From Pseudarthrobacter sulfonivorans (lineage in GTDB: Bacteria; Actinomycetota; Actinomycetes; Actinomycetales; Micrococcaceae): 64,000 nucleotides of DNA. The notes beneath the pieces are model-generated. The model saw nothing but the letters and a program-made list of their open reading frames with translations. It was not told where the DNA came from and did not search any database. Positions 4,438 to 33,716 of this stretch are shown here, piece after piece (positions within the stretch are counted from its first letter, which is position 1; every line of letters begins with the position of its first letter). The stretch spans positions 2,542,001-2,606,000 of the forward strand of contig NZ_CP013747.1 of the NCBI RefSeq assembly GCF_001484605.1, in the 5' to 3' direction. The translations under genes and the position numbers were made by a program.

Positions 4438-4489
4438 TCACCGCCGCCGCTACGGCTTTGCGGCGCCGGCTTGCTGAGCCGGTGTGAAG

Positions 4490-17929: not shown

Positions 17930-18009
17930 GAGTTTATTGCGTGGATTCCAGAAGGAGCGCTAGGTGAAGGCGAGGCACTTGTACCGGGGTCACAGCCGCC
18001 AAAATGTGT

Positions 18010-18051
18010 CATTTTGAAATCTGGGACTGGCACAAAGGCGTGTTCAAAATG
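18010..18051. repeat. 9-bp inverted repeat CATTTTGAA / TTCAAAATG
   Basis: CATTTTGAA at 18010-18018 is the exact reverse complement of TTCAAAATG at 18043-18051, with 24 bases between. The left arm also belongs to AAAATG-TGT-CATTTT (18001-18015). It lies downstream of both flanking operons, so a termination or boundary role is possible. Confidence 0.5.
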
Positions 18052-18085
18052 CGCGGAACGGACCCTATCCTGACATCCTTTTCGA

Positions 18086-18108
18086 CCCAAGTCTGACGTC
18101 AGATTGGG
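18086..18108. promoter_or_regulatory. Long near-perfect palindrome centred on TCTGACGTCAGA
   Basis: TCTGACGTCAGA (18092-18103) is a perfect 12-bp palindrome. CCCAA (18086-18090) and TTGGG (18104-18108) extend it, with one unpaired G at 18091. It could be a protein-binding site, a convergent terminator stem or a recombination site. Confidence 0.5.
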
Positions 18109-18405
18109 GTGTAGCTGATCGTGGCAGGACATAAGGAGGGAGGTCCGTCACGAGCGGGAAACGAGGTCAGTCCGCACCCTTATCTCTGCGGAGTGGGGCC
18201 GAGACGATAGAACGGCACCGGGTCTGCTCGAGATCCGGAAGGGCATGACCTTAGTGAAGTGGTGAGGTGAACTGCAGGCAGCGAGACTGATCCCGGCGGC
18301 GCTACCGCAAGCCTTCGATCCTCTGCTCCCATGGGCGAAACTGGGCTAGTCAGGCGAGGAAAAGGCTCGGGTCTGCAGCGGTCGGCGGTGCCGGAGTGAG
18401 AGTAA

Positions 18406-21400
18406 CTACCGTTGAGCCGCGGAGCCTGCCCATCGCCACACTCGTTCGGACAGGATGGCGAGCCGCTCAGGTCCTGCCGGAAGCCCCGACATCAATTGCC
18501 TTGTAGCCTCGTCCAGGACTTCGTCGCTCATCGGAGTTCTCATTTGTACAGCGCTTGTTTCCAGGAAGGCACGAACATCGTCGGGCTCTATGCCACTGAG
18601 TTGTTCCCATGCCACTCCCGAGTTACGAAGTTCGTTGGATTGATCATCAAAATCGAGCAAAACCAACGCCAGCGATGAGCGAGGCTCTTGCGACACGACG
18701 AGGGCGAGGCGTCGCGCAAATTCCTTCATGCGGGGGGAAACCCCTAAGGCATCTATTCCGTCGAGAACCCACACCATTGTTCGGTCGCTGGCTGTGAACT
18801 CCTGAACGACCCAAAGTGCGAGAGCGTACAGGTCGCCGTCAGGGGGCGGCACAAGCCGCCTCTCGCTGTCCATGCTGCGCGACAACATCCCCACGACAGC
18901 CAACGGCGTGATTCCGGGCGTGCTGGCAAGGTCTACGACAAATACTTCAAATAGCCCAGTCTGGCTGGCGAGATGCTCAAGCATCCGGGCCGCGAAGGTC
19001 TTGCCGCTCCCTGCAGGTCCGTTGACAACCAGCACGTTGTACAACCTGAGTTGCACCAACTCACGCAATTTTTCACGGAGACCCAAACGATCGATAACAA
19101 GAGGCGAGAAATCGCCAGAGTGAAGTTCCAAAGGCGCTGCAGATGTTACCAAGGGATGCTGCTCGTACTCGTTTCCGGTAGTGAAGACCAGTCGCTGGAG
19201 GTTGAACCCCTGGACAGTTACGTCTCCCCAGAAACCTTCCCGCTCGTGCTTCTGGCCAATTTCCCATATCCGGGCCTGTACCTCGGCCCTCGTCTCGCGT
19301 ACGGCATCGTCATCCTTTGGCGCTGAACCCTCTAGTGTCTCAGCGAACTCGTGTAGGGCTTTCAGTTGGCCACGGTTCTCTGGGGGTGTTCTGAGCGCCG
19401 TCAACAATACGTCTCCGGTGGCTCGTGCCCCGCTGCGGAGGTCATCGATAGCCCAGGTAATGGTTGACAATCGGGGATGAACGGTGGGCCAATGGACGAG
19501 CATCCAGGGGGCAGGTTGCTGCGGAGACACTTCCAAGAGGCTGATTCTGCGGGAGGACGAGTGCGGGAGGGTTCCCGCTTGTGACACAGCCAGGACACCG
19601 CCTGGGTGAGAACCGGCCAGCCTCAGGACGATGTCCCGCAAGCGGACGGCAGGTTCATCGGGTGCATCATCAAAGACCAAGACGGGGTCGTCGCCTCGAG
19701 CGCTCTGTCCACTGCCGTTGACAAGCAAGAACAATGGCTTGTGCCGGCTAGCACCACTTGTGCCAAGCAGAGCATCAATTGCGGCGGTGACCGTGGCCGG
19801 GCCGGTTGGGGCGCGGATCACCCTAACATCCTCATCGACGTTCGCGCCTTCCGGTGCAACTAGCCATCGGACGATATCGTCCACTTGCTGTGACGCCCTT
19901 GAATCGGTGCCAAGGTCGAGGAGGAGGGCAGCTGCGAACATCGGTGGCCGGCTGGGCGCGACTAGCCGGAGCGTCCGCTCTACCTCCGTCTGAAATGCAT
20001 CCGACGACGTTGGCGGCGGGAATTCAATTGTGAGAGACGGGTCCCCGAAATGCTGGAAGGCCAGCACCGTTTTGGACACCGTATAGCTTTCGTTCGCCAT
20101 TTCGGCCCGCACTTGAGTCAGTGCGTGGGCTGTGGTCGATCCGCTGGCGACGTGCGCGTAGAACCGCTCCGCAACACGACGGGCTGCCTTTGCGTTGACA
20201 GCCCACAGCGGCGCCACAACGGCCCGGGCACCCGCTTCGAGCAGCTTCGTTGCGAGGTCGGCCGTGGAGCCGACGTTTACGAAGACGAGCGGGCCCCACC
20301 TGAGGTCGAGGCTGCCCATCGACCCACCCGCGGCGTGGATTACCTGCGGGTGACCCACCGGGCTTGTGGGGCCTTCATCTGTCGCGAAAACCGGTCGGAC
20401 CGGGTAGGCCGAGGCGAGGTCTACGCCCTCCTGTTGCGCGCTTGACAGTGTCTGGCTTTCTGGTGGAGGAAGTAGAACGACGAAGTCCTCCGCCAGCAGG
20501 TGACCTTGATAGGGATTGGTCCACCACCCCGGAACTACCGTTACCGGCGACCGCCATCCAAGACTCGATTCCCACCTGGTTGATTTCTTGTCGCGAGGCA
20601 ACAGGTGCCAGGGGACGCCGGTGAGGTCTGTGGTCAGGACTAGCGTCACTTCTCGTGAAGGGGTGATCTCTCGCAAATGCGGCCAGAGCCGTGGGGGTAT
20701 GATCCGGCGCAACGCCAGGACGGTCTCTGTGGCCCGTTCGCTCAACTGGGTCCGGCTGCGGACACTGCCGAGTCCCTCGGCCAATCTTCGTCGGACGGTG
20801 CGGGGCGTTCCACTTCTTTCGAAGACTGTCTCTCCTCGGTCAACATACCGCCAATCCAGTACCTCATCCCCGTCGGAGAACGTCGAGGTGATGGACAGGA
20901 CGAGGGGACCGCCGCTTTCCAGTGGAGTGAAATCGATATCTGGCTCGGCGCCGCTCGCACGTTCGCCCAGGTCGAGCGTAGGATGACGTCGGATCACCCC
21001 GTCGGCCCCAGCCGAGACGATGACCACGCGGTCGTCCTCCCGGATGCAGACGATTGACGTAACGTGCTCCGTGTGATCTTGAAGCCCGACCTGGAGGGTC
21101 ACGCCGGAGGCTAGGTCCCACGCGATGAGGTGACCACTTGCATCTCCGCTCACGATGACGCCCCCGGAATTGGATTCGCAGGAGGCGATAGCGGTAACAG
21201 CTTGGAGGTGACCCTTGAATGCCGGTCGGACCAAGGATCCGGTCGCAGCGTCCCAGACCTCGATAGCGTTCCCGGCGCCTGTGACGAATAGTGGTCTTCC
21301 CTCGTGCTCCGTCACTGCAAGGCACGTGATGACATCACGTGCCGGCGCCTTCCAAGTGACCCGTGCTGAGAGCCCGGCCTCTGCCACTTGAAGGGCCCAT

Positions 21401-23559
21401 ACCGTCATGCCACCCTCGGAGTCCGCGCTCAGGAGGCATGGCCCGTCATCAAGTGACGCCCACACCAATGACTTGTAGGCGCTTGTCGATTGTCCGATCA
21501 CACTCCCGCCCTTGGCTGATCCTGAGAGATCCCAAACCCAGAGACCACCGTCTGCGTGCCCGCTGACGACGAACGGTCGACCCTCGATCATGCCAGAACC
21601 GAGTGCCGTGATCCGCGAATCAGGTTGTGGGCCGGTCGAGAATACTGACTCAGCGAAGTCCTCTGACTTGCCACTGGCGAGGTCCTCGATGTGCGAGGAG
21701 CCGAGCGCCCACAAGAGAACGGAGCCGGAGTGTCCTGCTGTCAGGGCGATTGGGCGGTCCCGTTGGTGCGTGCAGACGATGGGACCCGCGTCAACGACAT
21801 CCCAATCAGTTGGCTGAGGACCAAAGGGTCGTCGGAGAGTGAGATCCCACGCGCGGACTGTGCCGGTGTCTGTTCTGGCAACGGCGACGAGACGTCCACC
21901 TGTCACTAGGCAGTCCATTGCGCTTACAGGCGCTTTCACGTCCAGGCGCATGCTGCCATCCGGCTCCGTCCGAACCTGTTCGGCTGTCGAAGGACTGGGC
22001 GCAGCAAGTGCCTCTCGGAGGGCCGGTGCCGAGGTTTTCCGAGCGAGTCCGAGCCGTTCGACGAGTTCCAGCGGGATGGTTGTCCCGGGGAGGTCGGCAA
22101 CGGCATCCCGGTCCTCTTCATACAATAGTGAGAACGGCGATCGGCCACCGATGGCCTCAAGGTAGGGTGCAACCGCGATCCAGACATCCAGTGCGTCTGG
22201 CGCTGTCACTAGATCGTGGAAATAGCGTTGGGCAACGGGGGCGAATGCGAGGCTGTCTTCCTTGAAGACTAGTGCGTCGATGGCTATGAGGTGGGCGAGG
22301 TCAGAGATGTCTGCGTCCGGGATCAGGCGCTCCATGACGATTCGCACGAGGTCCAGCGACAAGTGGACCGTGGAAAGTAGCACCCCGAGCCGCCGTGTGC
22401 GTGGGGACAGGGACGTATTGAGTAGGTCCCGGGCCGCCTCGTCGTCCGCGGGGAGGAGCCCGCCATCTGGCGGTGCGTCGCGCGGGCCCGCGACAACCGC
22501 ATCGACCTCCGCGCCCACTGCTCCCGTTACAAGCCGGGCCCATGCGGCTAGGCGCCCAGGTGTTAGCGAAACGAGAGGAACGACTTCCACTGTTGATGCG
22601 GCTTCGGTGCCTGTCTCGTCTATCCACCACGGATAATCGAACTGAAGCCGCGCGCTGGGCGTCGCCGCCGCCCGCGCCGTGGCGGCGAGCTCGGCCTCCC
22701 CAAGGGTCGTAAGGTCCGCCGCTGATCCAGATAGTAACTGCAAGATCGCAGTGGGCGACCACTTACCCCACAGCTTCAGCGCCTGCCAGACTTCCGTTTC
22801 GGCCCAACGCGGCGACATGCCATCGGTGAGCACCAGCACGAGCGTCCGACCTCCGACATCGGGGTGGAGCAGACCCGTGGGCGTCGTTAGCGCGAAGCCT
22901 CCCCCGCTCGCGTCGATTGACCACCGGCCGACGTGCCGAAACGCTCCTGACCGCTCCAGTAGATCGCCGAACGCACGGCATGTGTCCTGCCATATGGTCA
23001 TAGACGGGCCGGAATCGGTTATGAGCGAGACATCAAGCCACGGCTCCTCCTGTCGCCGAAGCAAGGGGACGAGCAGTTCTGTGTCGCAGTAGTGGTCCAC
23101 GGTGGCCGCGAGGTCAAGCTCCCGGCGACGGGACGACCGTTGTCGGCGTATGAGCGGTCGGATAGCGCGTTCGAGTTCGCGGCGGCGCGGAAGCGCGAAT
23201 CGGCGGGGGGCAACGGCGGAGAGGTCGGCAACTGCATCCCCGCTCACCTGCCCGGTCGTTAGGATCCGCCCTACGGTGGACGCCGCGCGGAGGGGTTTCG
23301 GGGCAGATGGTACTTCTGGTGATGACAAGGGTGACTGGGGTGGTGGGATCTGGTCTGGGGACGGGAAGCGCGATACGGCGTCGGGAGGGCCGGGCTCTTC
23401 CCAAGAGGATGGAACCGGTTCAGCGTTCGCCGTCGGCTTGGTCTCCGTCTCGGCGGCATGTGCTACCTGCGCGCGTATAAGCCACACGATATCGGCGAGC
23501 TCGCGCCAGTCGACGGCCAGGCCGGCCTTCCGTAGCGCGGAAGCGAGCTCAGGGATCAT
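18406..23559 (-). CDS. Giant vWA-WD-CHAT-like-ATPase protein (SAV_2336-like), conflict system
   Basis: 1717 residues. In order: helical SAV_2336-type head (1-35), a disordered Pro/Ser linker (40-100), a basic segment, then a vWA domain (about 174-330) with a weakened metal site (D182, G184 in place of Ser, S186) and VLTDG (D246). Seven WD-like blades follow (545-865), each ending near a VWD/AWD motif. A CHAT-like domain spans 900-1185, but the expected catalytic His and Cys positions are Gly (HAAGGS at 1075; VNVGST at 1094-1099). Residues 1205-1400 may be a second, degenerate caspase-like fold (LFLLVNGSGQS, GGVLAVSQAG). A P-loop ATPase ends the protein (GPAGSGKT 1514-1521; MVWVLDGID, D1600). 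The ATG overlaps the MoxR stop (ATGA). The likely role is sensor/scaffold in an NTP-dependent conflict system, probably cytoplasmic. Domain assignments beyond vWA, WD, CHAT C-terminus and P-loop are less sure. Confidence 0.8.
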   Translation of the reverse strand: MIPELASALRKAGLAVDWRELADIVWLIRAQVAHAAETETKPTANAEPVPSSWEEPGPPDAVSRFPSPDQIPPPQSPLSSPEVPSAPKPLRAASTVGRILTTGQVSGDAVADLSAVAPRRFALPRRRELERAIRPLIRRQRSSRRRELDLAATVDHYCDTELLVPLLRRQEEPWLDVSLITDSGPSMTIWQDTCRAFGDLLERSGAFRHVGRWSIDASGGGFALTTPTGLLHPDVGGRTLVLVLTDGMSPRWAETEVWQALKLWGKWSPTAILQLLSGSAADLTTLGEAELAATARAAATPSARLQFDYPWWIDETGTEAASTVEVVPLVSLTPGRLAAWARLVTGAVGAEVDAVVAGPRDAPPDGGLLPADDEAARDLLNTSLSPRTRRLGVLLSTVHLSLDLVRIVMERLIPDADISDLAHLIAIDALVFKEDSLAFAPVAQRYFHDLVTAPDALDVWIAVAPYLEAIGGRSPFSLLYEEDRDAVADLPGTTIPLELVERLGLARKTSAPALREALAAPSPSTAEQVRTEPDGSMRLDVKAPVSAMDCLVTGGRLVAVARTDTGTVRAWDLTLRRPFGPQPTDWDVVDAGPIVCTHQRDRPIALTAGHSGSVLLWALGSSHIEDLASGKSEDFAESVFSTGPQPDSRITALGSGMIEGRPFVVSGHADGGLWVWDLSGSAKGGSVIGQSTSAYKSLVWASLDDGPCLLSADSEGGMTVWALQVAEAGLSARVTWKAPARDVITCLAVTEHEGRPLFVTGAGNAIEVWDAATGSLVRPAFKGHLQAVTAIASCESNSGGVIVSGDASGHLIAWDLASGVTLQVGLQDHTEHVTSIVCIREDDRVVIVSAGADGVIRRHPTLDLGERASGAEPDIDFTPLESGGPLVLSITSTFSDGDEVLDWRYVDRGETVFERSGTPRTVRRRLAEGLGSVRSRTQLSERATETVLALRRIIPPRLWPHLREITPSREVTLVLTTDLTGVPWHLLPRDKKSTRWESSLGWRSPVTVVPGWWTNPYQGHLLAEDFVVLLPPPESQTLSSAQQEGVDLASAYPVRPVFATDEGPTSPVGHPQVIHAAGGSMGSLDLRWGPLVFVNVGSTADLATKLLEAGARAVVAPLWAVNAKAARRVAERFYAHVASGSTTAHALTQVRAEMANESYTVSKTVLAFQHFGDPSLTIEFPPPTSSDAFQTEVERTLRLVAPSRPPMFAAALLLDLGTDSRASQQVDDIVRWLVAPEGANVDEDVRVIRAPTGPATVTAAIDALLGTSGASRHKPLFLLVNGSGQSARGDDPVLVFDDAPDEPAVRLRDIVLRLAGSHPGGVLAVSQAGTLPHSSSRRISLLEVSPQQPAPWMLVHWPTVHPRLSTITWAIDDLRSGARATGDVLLTALRTPPENRGQLKALHEFAETLEGSAPKDDDAVRETRAEVQARIWEIGQKHEREGFWGDVTVQGFNLQRLVFTTGNEYEQHPLVTSAAPLELHSGDFSPLVIDRLGLREKLRELVQLRLYNVLVVNGPAGSGKTFAARMLEHLASQTGLFEVFVVDLASTPGITPLAVVGMLSRSMDSERRLVPPPDGDLYALALWVVQEFTASDRTMVWVLDGIDALGVSPRMKEFARRLALVVSQEPRSSLALVLLDFDDQSNELRNSGVAWEQLSGIEPDDVRAFLETSAVQMRTPMSDEVLDEATRQLMSGLPAGPERLAILSERVWRWAGSAAQR

Positions 23560-24527
23560 TGCGGGGGCGTCCTGTCGGTCACGGTGTCGCTTTTTAGTTC
23601 GCTGAGCAGAAGGTCGATGATCTTGTTGCGCTCGTCGCCTTCGGCCCGAAACGGACCTGTCACGAGATATATGGCATTTAACAGCTGGTCTGTTGCGACC
23701 TCGGAATGCTTGCGGCGTTGGATGAAGTCGAGGATCTGAACCTCGATTGCCGTTTTGCCATCTTTGAATACGGCGTCGCCGAGGTGGGCGCGGACGATCG
23801 CAGTCAGCTCTTCAAGCCCAGGATCTGGCATCCGGAGCCGGATACATCGACGGAGGAACGCCGCGGGGAAGTCCCGCTCACCGTTGCTCGTGAGCACGAC
23901 GAAGGGAAATTCCGTGCACTGTACCTGTCCTCGTTCGATGCGGTAACTCGTGTCCTTTTCGTCGTGTCCGGGGATGTCGACCCATCGCTCGTTATGCCTG
24001 GCCAGCTCGGGGATCTCAAACTCGCCGCGTTCAAAAATGTTGAGGAGGTCGTTAGGCAAATCAATGTCACTCTTGTCGATCTCGTCGATTAGCAGGGCGC
24101 GCGGTCGTGACCCCGGTACCAGCGCCGTCCCGAGGGGCCCGAGTCGCAGGTACTCGGAGATCGGCGGAGGCGAGGCGTTAGGGTCCTTCTCGAGCCCCCT
24201 AGAATGCAGGCGTCCGATTGCGTCGTAGCGGTACAGAGCTTCGGTGAGCGTGGTCGACGACGTCACGTGCCATCGAAGCACGCGCCCCAGCCGTAGCTCG
24301 CGCGCGACGGAATCGATTAGCGACGACTTACCGGAGCCCGCACGACCAGTCAGCAGGAGCGGCCGGCGAAGGTGAAGCGCTGCGTTTACGGCCTCAGCCA
24401 TCTCTTCGGTGGCCATGAAGGCTGAACCGGCGTCCAAGTCTGCAGGGAACCGCCGCCATGGCGGGGCCGCCGGTAGCTCCGGCTTGTGCGGGTTCGCGTG
24501 GCCCGTGTATATCTTCCACTGGCTCAC
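23556..24527 (-). CDS. MoxR-type AAA ATPase of the conflict operon
   Basis: 323 residues from a GTG at 24527 with a strong AGGAGG 4 bases upstream; GTGA overlaps the caspase-gene stop. Walker A GRAGSGKS (61-68), Walker B LLIDEIDK (D148, E149), sensor 1 Asn215 in VLTSNGERDFPAAF and arginine finger R226/R227 are all present, so it should hydrolyse ATP as a ring. The pattern (TEALYRYDAIGRLH, DLLNIFERGEFEIPEL, AAFLRRCIRLRMPDP) is that of MoxR ATPases found with vWA and VMAP proteins. MoxR ATPases typically remodel a vWA partner, here most likely the giant protein encoded downstream. Its stop overlaps the giant gene by 4 bases. Confidence 0.92.
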   Translation of the reverse strand: MSQWKIYTGHANPHKPELPAAPPWRRFPADLDAGSAFMATEEMAEAVNAALHLRRPLLLTGRAGSGKSSLIDSVARELRLGRVLRWHVTSSTTLTEALYRYDAIGRLHSRGLEKDPNASPPPISEYLRLGPLGTALVPGSRPRALLIDEIDKSDIDLPNDLLNIFERGEFEIPELARHNERWVDIPGHDEKDTSYRIERGQVQCTEFPFVVLTSNGERDFPAAFLRRCIRLRMPDPGLEELTAIVRAHLGDAVFKDGKTAIEVQILDFIQRRKHSEVATDQLLNAIYLVTGPFRAEGDERNKIIDLLLSELKSDTVTDRTPPQ

Positions 24528-26665
24528 TGGACCTCCTCGTTAGAGCGGGCGTTCGGATTCGGGGGCAGCCGAGCTGCATGGTCCCAGATGATGCGGAGCG
24601 AAAAGCCGGTGTCGACGGCGATGTCTCGGAGATCGTTTCGGCGCCGTTCAGGAAAGTCCTCGAGTCCCGCGTTGATGAGCTCGGTTATGCGGTCGCGAGC
24701 CGCCACCGCATCGCTCGGGTCGTCATCGGACCACAGGATGAAAGGTGCACCGGTGCGTAAGAGTTCCTCGAACTGCCCGTCGCCGTGCATCAAGGGCCGG
24801 TAATTGAGCGCCGTGCAGCAAATGTTGTCGTTGGTTCTAGCCTCCGACTTCTCGCCAGGGGACAGCCACTCCACGGCGGGCACCCCGTTGCCAGCGCGTT
24901 CTAGGACGACTTTCAAGCGATCCTTCCACCTTCTTTCATACGGTCCGCGGCGGCGCAGGTGCAGCACCACCGGCAGCGAGTTTGCCATGACCTCCTTCGT
25001 ACGCCTGTCCCATACAGGAGCCTCCCAAAGCTCCGGCCGCCAAGCGAGACGGTCTGGCGTAAGGATGAAGCCGACGGAGGCAGTGTCGGGGTAGCCATCC
25101 GGGTGACGGATGTGGAAGATCTCACCCAACTCCTCAGCCACTGCACGCGCAATCTCTTCCCTGGTCGTCCCGCACGCGCGCGGGCTGGACGCCTCCCACC
25201 ATCCGCGAGGGTTTTCTTCGTTCGCGACCCAGGTGTGCGTCTTGAGCTGAGGCGGCGTGTCATTGTTTTCATCCGCTTCGGTAAGGTCGAATACCACAAC
25301 GATTCGCGGCGGTGTCTCACCTGGGCGGCTAGAGGCACGCACCCGGGCAACAGCGTCGGAGTCGAGTTCACTTCGGAACCACGCGTCAACGCGTTTTCCC
25401 GTCACCCACTCTAGCCTCGCGATCAGGCGGTACAGCGGGGCGTCCTCGTGGTAGCGGCGCCAAAATGAGGCAGCGTGATCGAGCGTCTGAACGAGGCCTT
25501 CCACAACGAAAATCTCGCCGTACCCCTGCCGCGTTTCTCGGTAGGCAGTGCGGAGAGTGTTAAGGTCGACGTTCTCGATTACTCGGAGAGGCGTAAGAAT
25601 CCATTTCTGCCGATCATAGGTATTGCGAACGTGCTCGGCAGCGTGCAGGAGCCGGTCGATGTCGGATGCCTCTGCCCGATCTTCCATGGCACGAACAAAA
25701 TCGTCGCCGCCGCCAGAGGCGAAGATGCTGCGCACACTCTGGCTCTCGCTCGTCATCAGTTCGGGTGCTCGAATAAGCGCCTGCTCGACTGCCTGCTCGA
25801 CAGCCAGAAGCTGGGATGGTTGCAGTGCGAGGGATGCCGACTCGTAAACAAACTCGGCCCCGCCCTCCCCAGACACGCCGGTATAGAGACGTACGGGTCT
25901 ATTGATAAACTCGTCTTTCTTTTCATGAAAGCGCCTGTGCACGTGGTCCGACAGCCGCGCGAAATCGGGTGGGAATGCGTCCGTATGGCCCTCCAGCCAA
26001 GTGAGCAGTTCCGTCGAGTAGGCGGCCCGACCCGCATCCTTGTCGAAGTCCGCATACAGCCCGATGTCAGTCGAATAGTAGAGCAATTGTTGTGGTCTAC
26101 CATTCGGGAATTCGCCCCAGTCACCAGGATTCGGAAGTCGACGGCCCTCTAGTTCGTTGGCACACGCGTCGAAGAACATGACCTGATTGGGGAAACCGGC
26201 GATATCCTCCGACTTTGCGGCAAGCAGGGTCTGAAGATCGTCGATTCGGAAATTAGTAAGCTGCTCCGGATTTCGTATTGCGCCGGTTGTAAGTAAGAGG
26301 CGCTGACGGCTTGTGCTGACCCCATGACCGCACCAGTAAACCAGCAGGAGGTCGCCGCCGTTTTCCACAAGATCACTCGCGGAGGCTTTGATTCCGTCCG
26401 TGGACGTCGAGATCATCCGGACGCCCTTGGCCGCTAGCGCCATCGCACGCGAATCCTCCAGGCCCCCCACCCACGTGCAACCGAGGCAGACGCGTTCGGG
26501 TGGGACGCGGTGGTCAATCGCCCATTGTACGAATCGGACGGCGTGCAGTCCGGCGCCGGGTAAGTCCCAATCGACACCGAGGTCGCCGTACGTTTCAAGT
26601 CCGATCGCCAGCACTGAGACTCGTGCTGGATTGATGGCGGGGAGGGGAGGGAGATCCGTTGTCAT
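24524..26665 (-). CDS. Caspase fused to VMAP middle and C-terminal regions
   Basis: 713 residues from ATG at 26665, which overlaps the hydrolase stop (ATGA); a longer frame to 26833 lies antisense-shifted inside that gene and is rejected. Residues 15-275 are a caspase-like peptidase with an intact dyad: His114 in LVYWCGHG and Cys168 in VMFFDACANE. After a helical joint (280-300), residues about 300-440 resemble the VMAP middle region and 450-700 the VMAP C-terminal domain, with VVLHLRRRG, AVEWLSPGE and the typical GAPFILW end. In the known scheme, VMAP proteins link a vWA-MoxR sensor pair to an effector; here the effector protease is on the same chain. No signal peptide, so cytoplasmic. A self-targeting protease triggered by infection or stress is the best inference. 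Confidence 0.85.
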   Translation of the reverse strand: MTTDLPPLPAINPARVSVLAIGLETYGDLGVDWDLPGAGLHAVRFVQWAIDHRVPPERVCLGCTWVGGLEDSRAMALAAKGVRMISTSTDGIKASASDLVENGGDLLLVYWCGHGVSTSRQRLLLTTGAIRNPEQLTNFRIDDLQTLLAAKSEDIAGFPNQVMFFDACANELEGRRLPNPGDWGEFPNGRPQQLLYYSTDIGLYADFDKDAGRAAYSTELLTWLEGHTDAFPPDFARLSDHVHRRFHEKKDEFINRPVRLYTGVSGEGGAEFVYESASLALQPSQLLAVEQAVEQALIRAPELMTSESQSVRSIFASGGGDDFVRAMEDRAEASDIDRLLHAAEHVRNTYDRQKWILTPLRVIENVDLNTLRTAYRETRQGYGEIFVVEGLVQTLDHAASFWRRYHEDAPLYRLIARLEWVTGKRVDAWFRSELDSDAVARVRASSRPGETPPRIVVVFDLTEADENNDTPPQLKTHTWVANEENPRGWWEASSPRACGTTREEIARAVAEELGEIFHIRHPDGYPDTASVGFILTPDRLAWRPELWEAPVWDRRTKEVMANSLPVVLHLRRRGPYERRWKDRLKVVLERAGNGVPAVEWLSPGEKSEARTNDNICCTALNYRPLMHGDGQFEELLRTGAPFILWSDDDPSDAVAARDRITELINAGLEDFPERRRNDLRDIAVDTGFSLRIIWDHAARLPPNPNARSNEEVQ

Positions 26666-27825
26666 GCGAGAAAGCCCGCAATTTCCGTCCATGTTGCAGG
26701 GTTGTTCCAGTACGCGCTGTGCGACTGGGGGAAGGGCTGGCCGTTGTCGACCCCTACATCTGTAACCCTGCCTGGGAAAACCTCGGCGCCAATGTATGAC
26801 AGTCCGTCCCGCAGATCGTAAATGTTGAGCCACCGCGGGACGCTCTGCGGGAGCGCCTTTCCTGGCTGTACGGCGGGCAGCGCCCCGATCTCAAAAAAGT
26901 ACGGGGACTGGGATCCGACCGTGATGAGACCCTCGACGTGGGAAAACTCCTCCCGCGCGAGCAAATCTACGCACATGACTCCGCCGAGGGAATGACCGAG
27001 TAGGACGACGCGCTCGTCCACAAGATCGGCGAGGGTCGCGCGAAGAAGTCCGGTGGCCGTGACTGGATCGGCTAAAAATTTCAGGATATCGCCGGCGATT
27101 GGAGACGCTTTATCAGACAGGGCTCCGCGACGCTCCACTAGCGGTCGCGTGATGAATTCGGCGGCGAGTGTTTTGACGGCGTTCTTGAGCCACCTTCCGA
27201 TGCCCAACCCGTAGGCGCCCAGTTCCGAACTGAGAGCCTTCACAAGCTCGTCGCGCTGAGCACCGGGGATATCAGGCACCCCAGCGTTCTCTGCCAAAAC
27301 AATTGTTTGCGCGACGATCGCGCGCCCAATTGCTTGACGATGCTCCAGCGGCTGAGCAGGAGCGGTCATTGCGGCCTTCGCTAGCTCGGGGGACGCAGCG
27401 ATCTCGGCGACCCCCCGCTTAAGGTGGTCTGCCAATCGGGCGTCATGGAACCTAGCCGTGAGTTCGACGGACGGCGAGTACTTCTTTAGCTGCTTGATGA
27501 GAGCGTCTCCGGGCGGGGGACCAAACACCTCCGCTGTGGGCTTTAGGCGCAAAACCCGGAGTTCATAGCACGGATCCGAGTAAAGGATTCGCCACAGCGC
27601 GACCGCTTCCTCCTCCTCTGTCTGCTGTTCACCTCCGGTGCTCGCGAACGTCGGAATGGAGGCTCCGCCGAGCTCGAGCCGCGCGCCTGACTCCGCTCCC
27701 CAATAGCACCCCTTTACAAGTAATTTCAGCCCTAACGACGCGACCTTTTTCTCGATGAGATCCAAGGAGACCCTGTATCCTTCTTCCCGCACTCCAGTGC
27801 CGTGGACGAACAGCAGCGTCATCAT
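26662..27825 (-). CDS. Alpha/beta-hydrolase (lipase/esterase-like), first gene of the conflict operon
   Basis: 387 residues from ATG at 27825, with AGGAGGT 8 bases upstream. HGTG (8-11) provides the oxyanion strand, GHSLGG (277-282) the nucleophile Ser279, and Asp340 (NIYDLRDG) with His369 (FPQSHSAYW) complete a plausible triad. The long insertion between residues 60 and 265 is helical and may form a lid or partner surface. No signal peptide or membrane segment is seen. Similar cytoplasmic hydrolases occur beside caspase and CHAT genes. It may act as an additional effector (for example on lipids) or as a signalling enzyme. The 4-base overlap with the caspase-VMAP gene ties it to that system. 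Confidence 0.85.
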   Translation of the reverse strand: MMTLLFVHGTGVREEGYRVSLDLIEKKVASLGLKLLVKGCYWGAESGARLELGGASIPTFASTGGEQQTEEEEAVALWRILYSDPCYELRVLRLKPTAEVFGPPPGDALIKQLKKYSPSVELTARFHDARLADHLKRGVAEIAASPELAKAAMTAPAQPLEHRQAIGRAIVAQTIVLAENAGVPDIPGAQRDELVKALSSELGAYGLGIGRWLKNAVKTLAAEFITRPLVERRGALSDKASPIAGDILKFLADPVTATGLLRATLADLVDERVVLLGHSLGGVMCVDLLAREEFSHVEGLITVGSQSPYFFEIGALPAVQPGKALPQSVPRWLNIYDLRDGLSYIGAEVFPGRVTDVGVDNGQPFPQSHSAYWNNPATWTEIAGFLA

Positions 27826-28752
27826 CGCAGCGACCTCCTGTTGAAGTTGGCGCTCCGTCGAGTTCGCTCCAGGAGCGGCGTTGCCCTATGCGACTATGAT
27901 GTGGCACTAGCACGCGCGCTACAAGGGGTGGCCGGCCGTGCTAGTCCCTGCAGGATAGTGCGTCCACGTAGGGTTGGTGGTGGGGCCCGTAAGCCACTAG
28001 TAAGATCTGGGCGTTATCCCGCAGCGTGTCCTCCCCTTCTCGTGTTCGAAACATGCAGCTATACCCTTTAGCGGTGGCAAGGGCCAACATTAGAGGACTT
28101 TTGTTGGCATGCTGGGCTTTGCCGAGAATTGATCACAAGGAGATTGGTATGGCTAGGTAGATGGATGGCCGATTCGCCGTAGAGGTGGGTCGGGGTGACA
28201 CCCTGCTCTTTTTGGATATTGATCCAAACTTTGGCCCAAAACGAAATTTTTGTCACCCTTAACGACCATGTGAACTACAACGTACTGTATTCGTTGGCCT
28301 CGCTGCTGCCGTTTGAGATAGGCGGCGACGGCGAAAATGATTTTGTTCCGTCGAGTTCGCCATTGCGGGCTGTTATGAGCGCATGATGTTCAGGAACAGC
28401 CTCCGCATCCACCCCAAGCGACGACGGCCGCTCGATGCACATCCAACAGAATCGGTTGTGAAGGTTTGCTCAAGCGCCGATAATGAAGATTACGTCAAGC
28501 TGTACTCTGCGTATCTCATCGGATGAATCATTCAGACCCTCTCCCGCGGAATTGCGCGACAAGCGTTGGCGGCGCCTTGCGCCGCGGCGTTCGGGGGATT
28601 TATCCGACTCCAATCGATGTTCCCAGTCATGACTGGGCGGGCCGGGTCAGCGCGCCGAATGACAGAAAAAACGCCTCTGACCTGCGGATTTGCTGAGATG
28701 ATGCATTTAATGAAACATTGATTCAGATTTTGGAGCAGGTTTAGGAGGCGGA
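27826..28752. other. 927-base intergenic region between conflict operon and recombinase cassette
   Basis: No convincing gene. The first 60-100 bases must hold the minus-strand conflict-operon promoter, but I could not choose a convincing -35/-10 pair. GGGTGACA (28193-28200) and TGTCACCC (28251-28258) form an 8-bp inverted repeat around an AT-richer stretch. The perfect palindrome at 28622-28637 is listed separately. By eye it is lower in GC than neighbouring core genes, as expected for acquired DNA. Confidence 0.55.
28622..28637. promoter_or_regulatory. Perfect 16-bp palindrome CCCAGTCATGACTGGG
   Basis: Both halves match exactly. It lies 115 bases upstream of the tyrosine recombinase start and could be a recombinase-arm or core site, or an operator for the small HTH protein encoded in the cassette. 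Confidence 0.55.
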
Positions 28753-29859
28753 ATGGCAGTCGATGGATCCGGACGGGTGCACCTTCTGGGCTCCGTCCAG
28801 CTGCTTCATCCTGAAGAGCAGTCCTTCGATCAGATGCTCGATGGCTGGCGGAACCAGCAGCTGTCTCGCAACCTGAAGTTCGACACCATTGACCAGCGCA
28901 TCCGGTATGTTCGCAGGTTCGTGGATCATGTGAATGAATTTCCGTGGCATTGGACGCCGGCCCATGTCGAGGAGTATTTCGGGGACCTGCGCTCGATCCG
29001 GCACGTGAGCCACTCGACGCTTCGGGCCCACCAGTCCGCGCTGCGTCACTTCACGTCCTACGTCGCCAATCCCGATTATGGCTGGGACAGGGTCTGCGAA
29101 GAGCGCTTTGGTACCCATCCGGCCCAGGTCTTTTATGAGTGGAACACCTCCACGCATGTGCAGGAATTCGAAGGCCGACCCTCCAAGCGTGCCTACACGA
29201 AGGAGGAACTCCAGAGGCTTTTTGACCACGCCGATGACGAGGTTCAAGTCATTGAGGCCTCGGGCAAGAAGGGTTGGCAGGCGGCCTACCGCGACGCCGT
29301 GATGCTCAAAATGGCTTACTCCTACGGTCTTCGGTTCAATGAGCTGCGGCACCTGCAGACCGTCGATTTCGCAACCAACCCGCACGCGCGCAAGTTCGGG
29401 AAATTCGGTGTTTGCAAGGTCCGGTTCGGCAAGTCCCGCAAGGCATCTCCACCCAAGCCCCGCAGCGTCCTGACGGTCTTCGATTGGACCGCCGGCGTCC
29501 TTGAGGATTGGCTCGCCAACGGCCGAGGGACCCGTCACACCCTCGATCTCTTCCCCAGCGAACGCGGCGGCCTGATCGTCGAGTCCACCCTGCTGCGGCG
29601 GCTCCGGCGGTATCTGGACGAGCTGGGGATGCCTGCGGACGGGTTGGATCTGCATTCCCTGCGGCGCTCTTATGCCACGCACCTGTTGGAGGCCGGATGG
29701 GATCCTAGATTCGTGCAATATCAAATGGGCCACGAGTACGCCTCGACCACAGGCATCTACCAATTTGTCAGCGACGACTTCCGCAGCACCACGCTGCGGG
29801 CGTCCCTGGACCGCACGATGGACCAGGCACTCGGCAAACAATCGGGAGGTCAGCGATGA
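28753..29859 (+). CDS. Tyrosine recombinase / integrase (cassette gene 1)
   Basis: 368 residues with AGGAGG 5 bases before the ATG. Residues 25-110 form the SAM-like core-binding domain. The catalytic domain keeps the full set: Arg194 (YGLRFNELRHL), His301 and Arg304 (DLHSLRRSYATHLL), His327 (QYQMGHEYASTTG) and the nucleophile Tyr336 (GIYQFV). It should therefore be active in strand exchange. Its stop overlaps the next gene by 4 bases. With the two following genes it makes a three-gene recombinase cassette. Such cassettes are mobile, and this one is probably responsible for the neighbouring island. Confidence 0.92.
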   Translation: MAVDGSGRVHLLGSVQLLHPEEQSFDQMLDGWRNQQLSRNLKFDTIDQRIRYVRRFVDHVNEFPWHWTPAHVEEYFGDLRSIRHVSHSTLRAHQSALRHFTSYVANPDYGWDRVCEERFGTHPAQVFYEWNTSTHVQEFEGRPSKRAYTKEELQRLFDHADDEVQVIEASGKKGWQAAYRDAVMLKMAYSYGLRFNELRHLQTVDFATNPHARKFGKFGVCKVRFGKSRKASPPKPRSVLTVFDWTAGVLEDWLANGRGTRHTLDLFPSERGGLIVESTLLRRLRRYLDELGMPADGLDLHSLRRSYATHLLEAGWDPRFVQYQMGHEYASTTGIYQFVSDDFRSTTLRASLDRTMDQALGKQSGGQR

Positions 29860-30194
29860 AGCGCGAGGTCGAATACACGTGGCGGCTGTCCGAGCTGATG
29901 GCAGCACGCGGTCTTCACAACACCACCGATCTCATCCCCCTGCTCGCCGAGCGCGGAATCATCCTGTCCCGGCCCCAGGTCTACCGCATCGTCAACCAGA
30001 AGCCCGAGCGGGTCGCTCTGCAGGTCATCGCTGCGATCTGCGACATCTTCTCCTGCGGCCCCGAAGACCTCATCACCGTCACCGCCGCCGACGTCCGGGC
30101 ACGCAAGACCGGAACCGGCAACTCCCCCAACGTCGTGGACCTGAACCGCACCGTCCGCCCGCGCCGGGCCCGCATCATCGACGATGACCACTGA
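29856..30194 (+). CDS. Small XRE/Cro-type HTH protein (cassette gene 2)
   Basis: 112 residues; GGGAGGT precedes the ATG, which overlaps the recombinase stop. Residues 10-75 form a Cro/C1-type helix-turn-helix: RLSELMAARGL, LAERGIILSRPQVYRIVN as the recognition region, then AAICDIFSCGPEDLI. The tail is basic. It is likely a repressor or accessory DNA-binding factor for the recombinases. The 11-base overlap with the next gene supports one transcript. Confidence 0.88.
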   Translation: MKREVEYTWRLSELMAARGLHNTTDLIPLLAERGIILSRPQVYRIVNQKPERVALQVIAAICDIFSCGPEDLITVTAADVRARKTGTGNSPNVVDLNRTVRPRRARIIDDDH

Positions 30195-31695
30195 ACTCCC
30201 GGAAGGACTCATCCCGCGCAACACCGTCCGCGGCCGGCCCCGCACAACCGGAACCGTCCAGTGCGCCCGCTGCGGCCGCAACGCCGGCAAGACCCGGGCG
30301 AGCTGGCCGGAAGGCAAGATCTGCGGTCCCTGCTTCACCGTTGCGACCCGCACCCACGGCACCTGCCCCGACTGCGGCCACCACAGGCTACTCCCCGGCC
30401 CACCCGCACAGGATGGAGGACCACGGTGCGCCCCCTGCGCCGGTATCCTCCACAACTTCCACTGCGCCCGCTGCAACCACGAAGGTGAGTTCTACCGCCG
30501 CGGCATCTGCGCCCGCTGCGCACTCAGGGACGACCTCACCGCCCTGCTGCTCACGAATCCGGCCAATCCGACAACCGCAAACCGCCTGGTCGATATCCTC
30601 TGCCAAGCTGATCGACCGGAAAGCATTATCACCTGGAAACGCTCCGCCAAGGTCCAGACGCTCCTGACCTCCATCTCGAGCGGACAGACTCCCCTGAGCC
30701 ACGAAGGCCTCGACAGTCACCGCGATACGGCGGGACGGGCAGCCGACCACCTCCGGGCCCTACTCGTCCATCACGGGCTCTTCCCCTACCAGGACCCCTA
30801 TCTGAGCCGCTTCGAAGCCTGGATCGACGTCAAGCTGCGCCCCATGCCGGCCGAAGTTGCCAAACCCGTCGAGCACTTCGCCAAATGGCACCACCTCCGA
30901 CGCATCCGTGCCATGGCAACCCCAGACACTACGGCCCAGGGGCCGGTGCACTCCGCCAAACAGGAGATCACCGAAACCATCAAGTTCCTCGACTGGCTCT
31001 GGCAGACCCATCACCGCACCGCCGCCACCTGCACCCAGCAGGACGTGGACACCTGGCTCACGACCGGGCCGACCACCAGAAAGGCCATCCGGACCTTCTT
31101 CATCTTCGCGAAAAAGACCGGCACGAACATGCGAGTCGAGATTGGGCACTACGCCGCTAAAGGCCGGCCTGCCATCCCGCAGGAACAACGCCTTGCCTGG
31201 CTAAAGGAACTGCTCACCGGCACCAGCGAGTCCCTGCCCTACAGAGTCGCAGGGACACTGCTCCTCCTCTATGCCCAACCCCTGGTCCGGGTGGCCTCGC
31301 TCCGCACCGACGCCATCAGCATCAACGACACCACCGGCGCGATCAGGATCTGTCTTGGCACACACCCCGTTCCGGTCCCGCAGCCTTTCGCGGAACTCCT
31401 CAAGCAGCACCTCCGGAACCGCCCCAACCTCCGAACAGCATCAGACGGGGACAGCCAATGGCTATTCCCTGGTACTCGGGCAGGTCAACACCTCCACCCA
31501 AACACCATTATGGACAGACTCCGTGGCCTCGGGCTGGACCTGCTCGGCGCACGGAACGCGGCCCTGGACGAGCACCTCTCAGTCACCCCGCCACCACTGG
31601 TCGCCGACGCACTCGGATACAGCTACCAGGTCGCCTTCCTCCACGCAGATGCCGCAGAAGAAGCTTGGACGCGTTATGCCAGTGAGCGCACGTGA
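30184..31695 (+). CDS. Zinc-ribbon protein with degenerate tyrosine-recombinase domain (cassette gene 3)
   Basis: 503 residues. The N-terminus has eight CxxC-paired cysteines forming three zinc ribbons (C27/C30-C47/C50, C61/C64-C82/C85, C93/C96-C109/C112). Residues about 170-500 resemble a tyrosine recombinase: SAM-like region, then LLYAQPLVRVASLRTDAI in the place of the first Arg motif and ADALGYSYQVAFLHADAAEE near the end. The usual HxLRH and LGH are not recognisable (LGY instead), so catalysis is doubtful. It probably acts as a partner or targeting subunit of the active recombinase. No Shine-Dalgarno; translation is probably coupled through the overlap. Confidence 0.75.
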   Translation: MTTELPEGLIPRNTVRGRPRTTGTVQCARCGRNAGKTRASWPEGKICGPCFTVATRTHGTCPDCGHHRLLPGPPAQDGGPRCAPCAGILHNFHCARCNHEGEFYRRGICARCALRDDLTALLLTNPANPTTANRLVDILCQADRPESIITWKRSAKVQTLLTSISSGQTPLSHEGLDSHRDTAGRAADHLRALLVHHGLFPYQDPYLSRFEAWIDVKLRPMPAEVAKPVEHFAKWHHLRRIRAMATPDTTAQGPVHSAKQEITETIKFLDWLWQTHHRTAATCTQQDVDTWLTTGPTTRKAIRTFFIFAKKTGTNMRVEIGHYAAKGRPAIPQEQRLAWLKELLTGTSESLPYRVAGTLLLLYAQPLVRVASLRTDAISINDTTGAIRICLGTHPVPVPQPFAELLKQHLRNRPNLRTASDGDSQWLFPGTRAGQHLHPNTIMDRLRGLGLDLLGARNAALDEHLSVTPPPLVADALGYSYQVAFLHADAAEEAWTRYASERT

Positions 31696-31735
31696 ATAAG
31701 GGGCCATTACGCGAGCTCGTGCGAGACTTCCAAGC

Positions 31736-32323
31736 ATGGTAACTGCCGCTTTCTACTTTGCGACCCTTGAGGACCAAGCGACGCTACTCGACTACCTGGG
31801 AGAACCGGACAAAGTCACATTGCATCCGTGGCCGGTTGTTCGAACTCCCCTGGATGTCCTCAACCGCGACGCAGCCCTGGCGGGCCCGCAGATTTTCGTG
31901 GTCAATCGGGACCTCGGCCCACCGGTGTCTATTCGTTTGGGTGACGGCGCGATGGATGGACCGACGAGGGCGGGCCTCTTCAACCGGCTCAATTGGGACC
32001 GGTTGCGCCCTTCCCTCGACAAGGCTCTGGTGGACTCGAACGCGTCCCCGGTGCTCTTCTGGGAGCCCGCCGAAATCTCCAAAGAAGTGTTAGGCGTGAG
32101 CATGCTCGGGTCACAAGCCGATTCGATGGCCGCCATATCGGTGGATTATGAACGCTGGGTCAACCGGACGATCGGCTGGATACGGCGCAAGGGGACGAAA
32201 GTGTGGGGCCTTGAGCGTGGGGCCGTTCGGCCGGACCTCGACATCCAGCTCGGCTTCCTCAACAGTGTTTATGCACTTCCTGGAGCTCTCCGAACACTCG
32301 AGCAAGGCGCGGTCGGCCGCTAA
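31736..32323 (+). CDS. Hypothetical protein, possible cassette or island cargo
   Basis: 195 residues, starting 40 bases after the recombinase cassette. MVTAAFYFATLEDQATLLDYLGEP at the N-terminus and LGSQADSMAAISVDYERWVNRTIGWIRRKGTKVW (shown as two pieces, LGSQADSMAAIS and YERWVNRTIGWIRR) are the most conserved-looking parts. No membrane segment, signal peptide or known motif. The start ATG lacks a clear Shine-Dalgarno. I do not recognise the family. Confidence 0.65.
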   Translation: MVTAAFYFATLEDQATLLDYLGEPDKVTLHPWPVVRTPLDVLNRDAALAGPQIFVVNRDLGPPVSIRLGDGAMDGPTRAGLFNRLNWDRLRPSLDKALVDSNASPVLFWEPAEISKEVLGVSMLGSQADSMAAISVDYERWVNRTIGWIRRKGTKVWGLERGAVRPDLDIQLGFLNSVYALPGALRTLEQGAVGR

Positions 32324-32532
32324 AGAATCGCTGGAAAATCCCTAATGTGCGCCTGTTCCGAAACGAATACGCACAAACCTGATACGCAGGGGTGCCAGTA
32401 GAGGCCAAGAGGGGTCTCCGATCGGGCCTTCTTGCCGCCCCGGGCGGGCCCCTCCCACGTCCCCGGCCGCGGCCAAAAATTCCACACCGGCAGGTATGTT
32501 GCCTGGATCACATTTGATCTATGGTTGTCCGG

Positions 32533-32554
32533 GGCGCCACAGCGTCGTGGCACC
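32533..32554. promoter_or_regulatory. Inverted repeat upstream of the STAS-like gene
   Basis: GGCGCCAC (32533-32540) and GTGGCACC (32547-32554) pair at 7 of 8 positions around a 6-base loop. It lies 23 bases before the GTG start and may be an operator or leader hairpin. Confidence 0.4.
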
Positions 32555-32577
32555 CAACTTAGAGCGGAGAAATATTC

Positions 32578-32907
32578 GTGACAAAAGACAAACTTCGGGT
32601 GCTGGTCCGCGTGGACCTCGACTGCGCCACAGCCCAGGTTGCCGCCCAGGGCCACGTGACCTCCCAAAGCGTCCACGGCCTCTATGCCGTCATGAAGCGC
32701 GCCAACTCACTCACTGCCGGCATGACCCTGGAACTCGACATGACCCGCGCCCTCATCGAGCCCGACGCCTTGGAAGAACTCCGGGCCTGCTCACGCTCGC
32801 ACCATCTGCCTGCCCTCGTCGATCCGCTCCAGTCCGACTACAGGCTCAGCATCCTCGCCCCCGACAACGCGGCGCCCCTGGCAGCAATGGCTGCACAGGC
32901 AGCCTGA
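32578..32907 (+). CDS. Small STAS-like protein
   Basis: 109 residues from a GTG with GGAG 9 bases upstream. Order and spacing of beta and alpha elements (LRVLVRVDLDCATAQVAAQG, SQSVHGLYAVMKRANSLTAG, MTLELDMTRALIEPDALEEL) resemble the STAS fold of anti-sigma factor antagonists, but the phosphorylatable Ser motif is not obvious. No kinase or sigma factor is adjacent. Function unassigned. Confidence 0.6.
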   Translation: MTKDKLRVLVRVDLDCATAQVAAQGHVTSQSVHGLYAVMKRANSLTAGMTLELDMTRALIEPDALEELRACSRSHHLPALVDPLQSDYRLSILAPDNAAPLAAMAAQAA

Positions 32908-33084
32908 CCCGCAAAGCAATCTCAGGGGAGATAGATCCACTGACGACGAGTCGCCGCTCGAGTCGGCGAAGCGGCCCGTAATGCAGCCTCTCCCCCGCGC
33001 TTTTGTGGGGATTCCGCACACACCGCTAGTGGAGAGCACGTCACGCTGATCTGCTGTCGGACTGCGTCCTGAGGAATGGATGCC

Positions 33085-33387
33085 CTAGCCTTCGCACTCG
33101 ATGCAGTACGAGCGGCCGTTGCTTTCGCGTGCGAGCTGGGACCTGTGCCGGACGAGGAAACAGGAATAGCAGGTGAACTCGTCCGCGGCCTGGGGAATGA
33201 CCTGAACGATGAGCTCCTCGGCGACGATCTCTCCCCCGGGAGTCAGACCCTCATCGAGTGCATCCGCTTCGTCCAGTTCAGTGACGACGCTGCGGGCATC
33301 CGGAGCATTCGCAGACTGCAATACCTCCAGGGAACGGTCCTGGGTTTCCTTGACATCGGAACGGACTTCGTCATAATCGGTTGCCAC
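33085..33387 (-). CDS. DUF4193 family protein
   Basis: 100 residues from GTG at 33387. MATDYDEVRSD at the start, an acidic middle, EELIVQVIPQAADEFTC and a C-terminal CYSCFLVRHRSQLARE...CIEC pattern match the actinobacterial DUF4193 family. The four cysteines suggest a zinc ribbon. Function unknown; usually a single conserved gene in high-GC Gram-positives. Confidence 0.9.
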   Translation of the reverse strand: MATDYDEVRSDVKETQDRSLEVLQSANAPDARSVVTELDEADALDEGLTPGGEIVAEELIVQVIPQAADEFTCYSCFLVRHRSQLARESNGRSYCIECEG

Positions 33388-33716
33388 TTTAGGTGATTCT
33401 CAGCTCTAACGTTTCTACGATGTTCTTTCTGACGAGAAAGCAACGTACACCAAAGCGCCGGTGTTCCCATGTCAAAGAACCGGAGGACGTCAGGGCCGCG
33501 CCATAAAGCGGACCACGCCGGTGCATACCCGCGTCACCCAATGCCGGAGCGATATGCCGCGGCCCAGATCGAGGCTCCCCCACGGGCGCCGACTGCCGAT
33601 AGTCGACGTTTCGTCAACCTGAATTCTTAAACAGAAGGGTCGACGGCGGCAAGGTGAGTGCCGCCGTCGACCCTTCCTGGGAACTGCCGGCTTTCGGCTG
33701 ATGGGGAGCAGCGGCA
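33388..33716. other. Intergenic region between DUF4193 and the choline permease
   Basis: About 330 bases. Apart from the terminator at 33635-33675, no gene or other element was recognised. Confidence 0.5.
33635..33675 (-). terminator. Terminator of the choline/betaine operon
   Basis: A 17-bp perfect inverted repeat (33635-33651 with 33659-33675) with a 7-base loop, followed on the minus strand by CTGTTTAAG. It lies 42 bases beyond the permease stop. Confidence 0.8.

Follow-up and report, generated by a model that had tools for sequence, protein, structure and literature searches.

The window analysed here, a stretch of 64,000 nucleotides from the genome of Pseudarthrobacter sulfonivorans, contains an operon of four minus-strand genes which, judged by its sequence, belongs to the VMAP-type MoxR-vWA ternary conflict systems, a group predicted from genomics, and within them to the caspase/alpha/beta-hydrolase class. 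The lead gene (26662..27825) encodes an alpha/beta-hydrolase of 387 amino acids (AA), recognised by weak Pfam matches and by its relatives. It is followed by gene 2 (24524..26665), encoding a VMAP of 713 AA with an N-terminal caspase and classified by comparison of domains and relatives, by a MoxR AAA+ ATPase of 323 AA (23556..24527) recognised by AAA_5 and N-terminal motifs, and by a vWA component of 1717 AA (18406..23559) with Pfam and NCBIfam domains. All four open reading frames (ORFs) were found by ORF calling in the window at these coordinates and on this strand, and the three four-base overlaps reported in the initial annotation were confirmed. The overlap joining the hydrolase gene and gene 2 (ATGA, 26662-26665) was read in the sequence, and those at 24524-24527 and 23556-23559 follow from the coordinates and the first and last codons. 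The start codon of the hydrolase gene is preceded by AGGAGGT. The longest ORF of gene 2 begins at 26833 and comprises 769 AA; the start at the ATG at 26665, and hence the overlap, is supported by the close relatives P0005 and P0006 (76 and 75%), which begin likewise. A scan for promoters gave 4 matches (2.2 expected), one for terminators gave 7 (7.4 expected), and an Rfam scan gave none.

The caspase domain of gene 2 (residues 10-270, 25856..26638) matches Peptidase_C14 with 24.1 bits at a cut-off of 21.4 and is the sole match to this family in the 5.06-Mb genome at an E-value of 0.001. Its dyad of H114 and C168, already proposed in the initial annotation, belongs to five residues (G113, H114, G115, D166 and C168, forming GHG and DxC) that are invariant across 11 aligned VMAPs. 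The dyad is intact, and the domain is predicted to be an active protease. The profile searches also detected the vWA component directly, but not the C-terminal domain that defines a VMAP: VMAP-C (PF20028) was not matched by gene 2 even at an E-value of 1, and a search of the genome was likewise negative. The assignment of gene 2 as a strongly diverged VMAP is instead derived from its relatives. Among the 14 that were found, P0008, P0009, P0014 and P0016 bear PF20028, and their alignments with gene 2 span 97-98% of the length with identities of 27-29%, P0016 being named a VMAP-C domain-containing protein in its source. The alignment to these four relatives places the diverged VMAP-C region at residues 441-713 (24527..25345), where G639, P641, W645, W694 and D695 are invariant across the 11 aligned VMAPs. 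Full-length homology also extends to the VMAPs of the loci L001, L040 and L076. The first of these, from Nocardia concava, has the same four genes, and its VMAP matches VMAP-C with 53.8 bits.

The caspase of gene 2 has further relatives without a VMAP-C match (P0010-P0013, P0015, P0017 and P0018), which are 38-46% identical and all keep GHG and DxC. WD repeats were found in P0012 and TPRs in P0010, P0011, P0013, P0017 and P0018, accompanied by NB-ARC in P0010, P0017 and P0018, and P0015 is without a Pfam domain. The fusion of six of these seven relatives to TPRs or WD repeats hints that such modules regulate this type of caspase.

The MoxR protein matches AAA_5 with 26.8 bits at a cut-off of 22. 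According to PMC7159879 (Kaur et al. 2020, eLife), the N-terminal motifs WxhapG and PsWRxa are specific to the MoxR proteins of VMAP systems, and both are present here as WKIYTG and PPWRRF. The corresponding regular expressions, the first of which was slightly loosened, matched 65 and 70 of 81 MoxR ORFs. The MoxR protein also matches NCBIfam MadB_ATPase with 56 bits at a cut-off of 475 and the PADLOC model mad8 with 18.7 bits; MadB is a name known from the MADS defence system. None of the system-defining models of PADLOC was matched by the operon, the matches being confined to a generic model for caspases (20.5 bits) and to ATPase models with weak scores.

The initial annotation had correctly described the operon as a caspase-VMAP/MoxR/vWA conflict operon led by a hydrolase, with which the domains, the MoxR motifs and the relatives agree. 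Its suggestion that this arrangement is not a described system does not hold, since the four-gene arrangement is already described in PMC7159879. That paper gives the order VMAP-MoxR-vWA for the VMAP ternary systems and states that an alpha/beta-hydrolase always neighbours caspase-VMAPs and that, where a vWA chain bears a caspase-like domain, the pair of caspase-VMAP and hydrolase is nearly always present as well. Propellers, caspase-like domains and STAND NTPases are all reported there from vWA chains. About 70% of the caspases in effector position are described as inactive, and inactive enzymes serving as decoys are presented as a theme.

A search of the GTDB genomes with MoxR yielded at least 553 confirmed stretches, and the best 80 were used for counting. 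The resulting counts are biased upward, because these same 80 loci also served for iterating the profiles of VMAP-C, vWA and hydrolase, which in the first round matched 35, 76 and 3 ORFs, respectively. Under a strict distance rule, a VMAP lies upstream of MoxR in 72 loci, a vWA gene downstream in 74 and both, in the order VMAP-MoxR-vWA, in 68. Of the 12 misses, 10 arise where a contig ends or where the choice of start codon made genes overlap, and in the other two (L030 and L051) the VMAP lies about 2 kb off. All four genes were found in the Nocardia concava locus and on the plasmid p1 of Pseudonocardia sp. DSM 110487. The caspase dyad pattern occurs in 10 of the 80 VMAP-C ORFs, nine of which have a hydrolase directly upstream. 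Minus-strand ORFs matched by the iterated hydrolase profile in L022, L029, L031 and L033 were left out of this pairing count because they lack the serine motif and are distant from the VMAP genes. The serine motif in the form searched for is also missing in seven more of the 13 hydrolase matches, which have HSLG without the first G or are aligned otherwise.

Pairing of hydrolase and caspase was also seen outside VMAP fusions. Gene 2 matched seven other genomes among 393 sampled from the class, and four of these have both caspase and hydrolase. Three (G101, G356 and G332) have the hydrolase beside a stand-alone caspase-EAD2 gene with a vWA gene nearby, and the fourth (G293) has a VMAP fusion. 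The remaining three, with weaker matches to gene 2 (G046, G202 and G287), showed neither. From these neighbourhoods, the hydrolase-caspase pair seems to travel as a unit.

All Pfam matches of the hydrolase itself are below their cut-offs, the best reaching 24.9 bits instead of 26.3. It is 52% identical to the gene on the Pseudonocardia plasmid and 45% to the Nocardia gene, compared with 29-31% for VMAP. An HG dipeptide at residues 8-9, S279 within GHSLGG, D337 and D340, and H369 make up its motif positions. The columns of HG, the serine and both aspartates are conserved in all 11 aligned hydrolases. The histidine column is conserved in four of the 11, including the hydrolase of the window, and the other seven have a histidine two columns off. 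The Ser-Asp-His triad of a serine alpha/beta-hydrolase appears to be in place, and the protein is predicted to be an enzyme. A long stretch separates HG from S279 and could be a lid.

The giant vWA chain begins with an SAV_2336-type N-terminal region including the vWA domain (residues 17-424, 22288..23511), which matches NF041121 (SAV_2336_NTERM) with 241 bits at a cut-off of 200 and carries DSGPS at 182, resembling a metal-ion-dependent adhesion site, and LTDG at 244. A text search of the literature for SAV_2336 returned no paper. The N-terminal motif printed in PMC7159879 as [D/E]xxx[D/E]xxxa was found in 2 of 77 vWA ORFs, whereas 58 of them have the form [DE]xx[DE]xx-aromatic. The vWA protein of the window has ELADIVW, which is of the latter form, and the printed spacing may be off. 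A WD-type beta-propeller follows at about residues 535-870 (20950..21957), where propeller models match at E-values down to 3e-14, those shown being below their cut-offs. In four Streptomyces loci (L022, L029, L031 and L033), a large protein encoded directly after the vWA gene matches the profile of this propeller with E-values of 1e-35 to 1e-45.

The CHAT domain at residues 878-1185 (20005..20928) matches Pfam CHAT with 45.9 bits at a cut-off of 24, covering only positions 209-270 of the 289 in the profile. The CHAT-like domain of the initial annotation is thereby confirmed, but its missing catalytic cysteine had been overlooked. None of the eight cysteines of the vWA chain lies beyond residue 838, and a His-Gly dipeptide occurs nowhere in it, so the His-Cys pair of CHAT proteases is absent and activity of this domain as a cysteine protease is excluded. 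The solved CHAT protein 8tl0, matched weakly by profile (i-Evalue 1.4), sets a glycine at the cysteine position. When the domain was aligned to other CHAT domains (three of four rows in the alignment), the histidine columns were out of register, and it is the absence of the cysteine on which the dead state of CHAT is argued. Among the matches listed for residues 430-1717, four other proteins were found, of which P0019, P0020 and P0021 share this block and P0022 matches only 23%. By eye, P0019, P0020 and P0021 read G, G and S at the cysteine position and are without His-Gly, with one cysteine elsewhere in each block.

Residues 1190-1480 (19120..19992) are without a family match. A second, dead caspase with NGSG for GHG and VSQ for DxC was considered for this region from the order of elements as seen by eye, and was dropped for lack of profile, Pfam or PDB support. 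A profile comparison with the VMAP caspases gave a probability of 0.7%, no Pfam family was matched at E-values up to 10 (one member matched a DUF at 0.09), and no PDB sequence was matched. The chain ends in a STAND-like P-loop ATPase (residues 1481-1717, 18409..19119), where AAA_22 matches with 29.6 bits at a cut-off of 27 and NACHT with 21.3 bits, below its cut-off. Walker A is intact as GPAGSGKT at 1514 and a Walker B-like VLDGID lies at 1598, in agreement with the second ATPase postulated for this chain. In P0019 the propeller is present and the protein ends before the ATPase; P0020 and P0021 have no propeller, and P0021 adds C-terminal TPRs. Identity to P0021 is 38% in the vWA core, 61% in CHAT and 54% in the ATPase. 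These identities suggest either that the cassette from CHAT to ATPase was transferred from one vWA chassis to another or that divergence was faster in the chassis.

Two opposite mechanisms have been printed for such systems. In PMC7159879, VMAP senses and its peptidase frees the effectors borne by the vWA chain, whose C-terminus is thus cargo to be released. PMC10907252 (2024 PNAS) presents the variable vWA C-terminus as the sensor, which signals via MoxR to the VMAP peptidase. For the operon studied here, the latter model is preferred because the vWA chain bears repeats and an ATPase along with a protease-like domain that is dead, the enzymes apparently able to do damage being the VMAP caspase and the hydrolase, and because relatives of the caspase are elsewhere fused to TPRs, NB-ARC with TPRs or WD repeats. 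Without its catalytic cysteine, the CHAT domain is weaker as an effector, which favours the same order, the one also put forward in the initial annotation. We therefore assign a probability of about 0.6 to the whole reading in which the vWA chain would sense, MoxR would switch, and caspase and hydrolase would execute. The vWA chain, with its propeller, dead CHAT and STAND-like ATPase, would be sensor and assembly platform. The MoxR ring may act on the vWA domain, setting the threshold and remodelling the complex, and VMAP would couple this change to its own caspase. The caspase and the hydrolase paired with it, which cleavage may unlock, would then damage the cell or its membrane and so halt invaders, with phages as the presumed target.

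Several observations weigh against this. The sensing chain is putative, and the Walker B region of its ATPase differs among relatives (VLDGID, VLDGIG and VLDGRP), which makes ATP hydrolysis uncertain. The cyanobacterial locus L060 has a caspase-VMAP at 2481-4466 and no hydrolase match in the available contig, an apparent exception to the pairing called invariable in PMC7159879. The caspase pattern used for counting excludes CHAT-type VMAPs such as that of L002, which is also without a hydrolase match. A Pfam scan of 10 neighbouring genes recognised no further defence gene. The literature searched, which excluded most subscription journals, yielded no report of an experiment on a system of this kind.

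Under the order of events given in PMC7159879, the VMAP middle region would sense, MoxR and vWA would set the threshold, and the caspase would cut the vWA chain, whose freed C-terminal modules (decoys, scaffolds or ATPase assemblies) would be the effectors. This order is the one proposed for the family in that paper. It is in line with the lower conservation of VMAP-M compared to the caspase (27 versus 41% identity to P0007), and the dead CHAT fits the decoy theme and the reported share of about 70% inactive caspases in effector position. However, neither an active protease nor another enzyme able to kill was recognised in the vWA modules that would be freed here, and the hydrolase accompanies the caspase even when the caspase is a stand-alone gene. 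We consider this order unlikely for the present operon, with a chance that is nevertheless worth keeping in view.

Another possibility, overlapping with the preferred reading, is that the hydrolase is the main substrate of the caspase. It would then be a caspase-activated lipase or esterase that damages the membrane and so kills the cell, with the ternary complex as no more than its regulator. The better conservation of the hydrolase than of VMAP (45-52 versus 29-31%), its accompanying of caspases in two settings and the potential lid between HG and S279 are consistent with this. Both the cleavage site and the lid are putative, however, and the sub-cut-off Pfam matches and the histidine column aligned in 4 of 11 hydrolases weaken the case further, so that this explanation is regarded as doubtful.

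By analogy, an apoptosome-like platform could also be envisaged. The propeller, replaced by TPRs in a relative, would sense, the STAND-like ATPase would assemble, the dead CHAT would pair with the live VMAP caspase and activate it allosterically, and the caspase would unlock a lipase-like killer hydrolase. In animals, a pseudocaspase acts in this manner, namely c-FLIP with caspase-8. As a complete scheme, this is speculative and improbable.

The operon was very probably acquired horizontally, as indicated by the comparison of its surroundings with congeners. It lies within a strain-specific island of 15.7 kb (17951..33665), delimited by a synteny break with the congener G396 and also marked by its base composition. 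Synteny with G396 ends at 17951 and restarts at 33665; in G396, the two flanks are separated by 3.5 kb of different DNA. Of four genomes compared, G396 and G444 lack the island but carry the DNA on either side of it. In G449, the left flank is present, and close behind it comes a short match (71%) to 33634-33795. G434 retains the right flank, but only 35 bases of the left one. The G+C content at third codon positions (GC3) is 0.67-0.73 in the operon. Outside the island, it is at least 0.79 in 28 of 31 chosen ORFs and 0.73-0.77 in the other three, in a selection that favours high GC3 in short ORFs and may include ORFs that are not genes. No convincing attachment (att) site was found in a search for direct repeats around the island. 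At its right edge (33634-33676), two perfectly matching arms of 18 nt enclose a loop of 7 nt, an inverted repeat that is possibly a terminator, and similar DNA occurs near the junction in G444 and G449.

The island also holds a mobile trio of overlapping plus-strand genes (28753-31695) divergent from the operon, comprising a tyrosine integrase (28753-29859) recognised by Pfam and plasmid record annotation, an HTH_26 gene (29856-30194) recognised by Pfam and a 503-AA protein without a Pfam match (30184-31695). In plasmid records, the annotations of the corresponding DNA are recombinase XerD, site-specific integrase and helix-turn-helix regulator. The trio is matched by 100 plasmid records, 22 of which cover at least 80% of it, and the organisms listed are mostly actinobacteria. 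The best matches are Arthrobacter and Paenarthrobacter plasmids (77-79%). For the permease/oxidoreductase pair downstream, the closest plasmid stretches are from Paenarthrobacter and Arthrobacter (82-84% identity). MoxR-vWA pairs do serve in complex assembly elsewhere according to PMC7159879, but a housekeeping chaperone-type complex or a developmental cell-death programme is very unlikely here, since the SAV_2336-type vWA gene occurs in one of 206 genomes of the genus, that of the window, and within an island, which argues against housekeeping in this genus.

The value of the operon lies in being a test case for an open question and not in being a new kind of system. The two printed models disagree on the vWA C-terminus, and here its protease-like domain is without the cysteine, with caspase and hydrolase apparently intact, which makes the operon a clean case. 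With 9.4 kb, it is also small enough to be transferred to a laboratory strain.

Compared to known systems, the Csx29 TPR-CHAT protease shares the CHAT fold and the allosteric control by a sensor complex, but PMC10028731 gives a live H615/C658 pair for Csx29, whereas the CHAT domain of the window is without the cysteine. The Apaf-1 apoptosome, drawn as a parallel for such systems in PMC7159879, resembles the operon by analogy in combining a WD propeller, a STAND-type ATPase and a caspase. Here the caspase is on another chain and connected via VMAP and MoxR-vWA instead of CARD, and homology of the whole systems is not claimed. The beta-propeller MoxR-vWA ternary systems (subsystem 4 in PMC7159879) share the propeller on the vWA chain; they have another third component, and the MoxR protein of the window scores 13.7 bits on bpMoxR, whose cut-off is 27. 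Closest in design is the caspase/hydrolase class of VMAP ternary systems in PMC7159879, which the operon matches in gene order, VMAP layout, MoxR motifs, neighbouring hydrolase and variable vWA C-terminus, and also in that the caspase of VMAP is intact and the vWA chain bears a caspase-like domain that is inactive. It differs in a VMAP-C diverged beyond detection by PF20028 and in the vWA architecture of WD propeller, dead CHAT, unmatched region and STAND-like ATPase, as compared with the main text of that paper. The operon on the Pseudonocardia plasmid p1 (L121) differs from that of the window in the vWA C-terminus, where two stretches resemble trypsin, one region resembles AAA_22 (25.5 bits at a cut-off of 27) and no propeller or CHAT match was obtained at an E-value of 0.05. 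It agrees with the window in all four genes and in their order, with identities of 52% for the hydrolase, 31% for VMAP, 65% for MoxR and 40% for the first 520 AA of the vWA protein.

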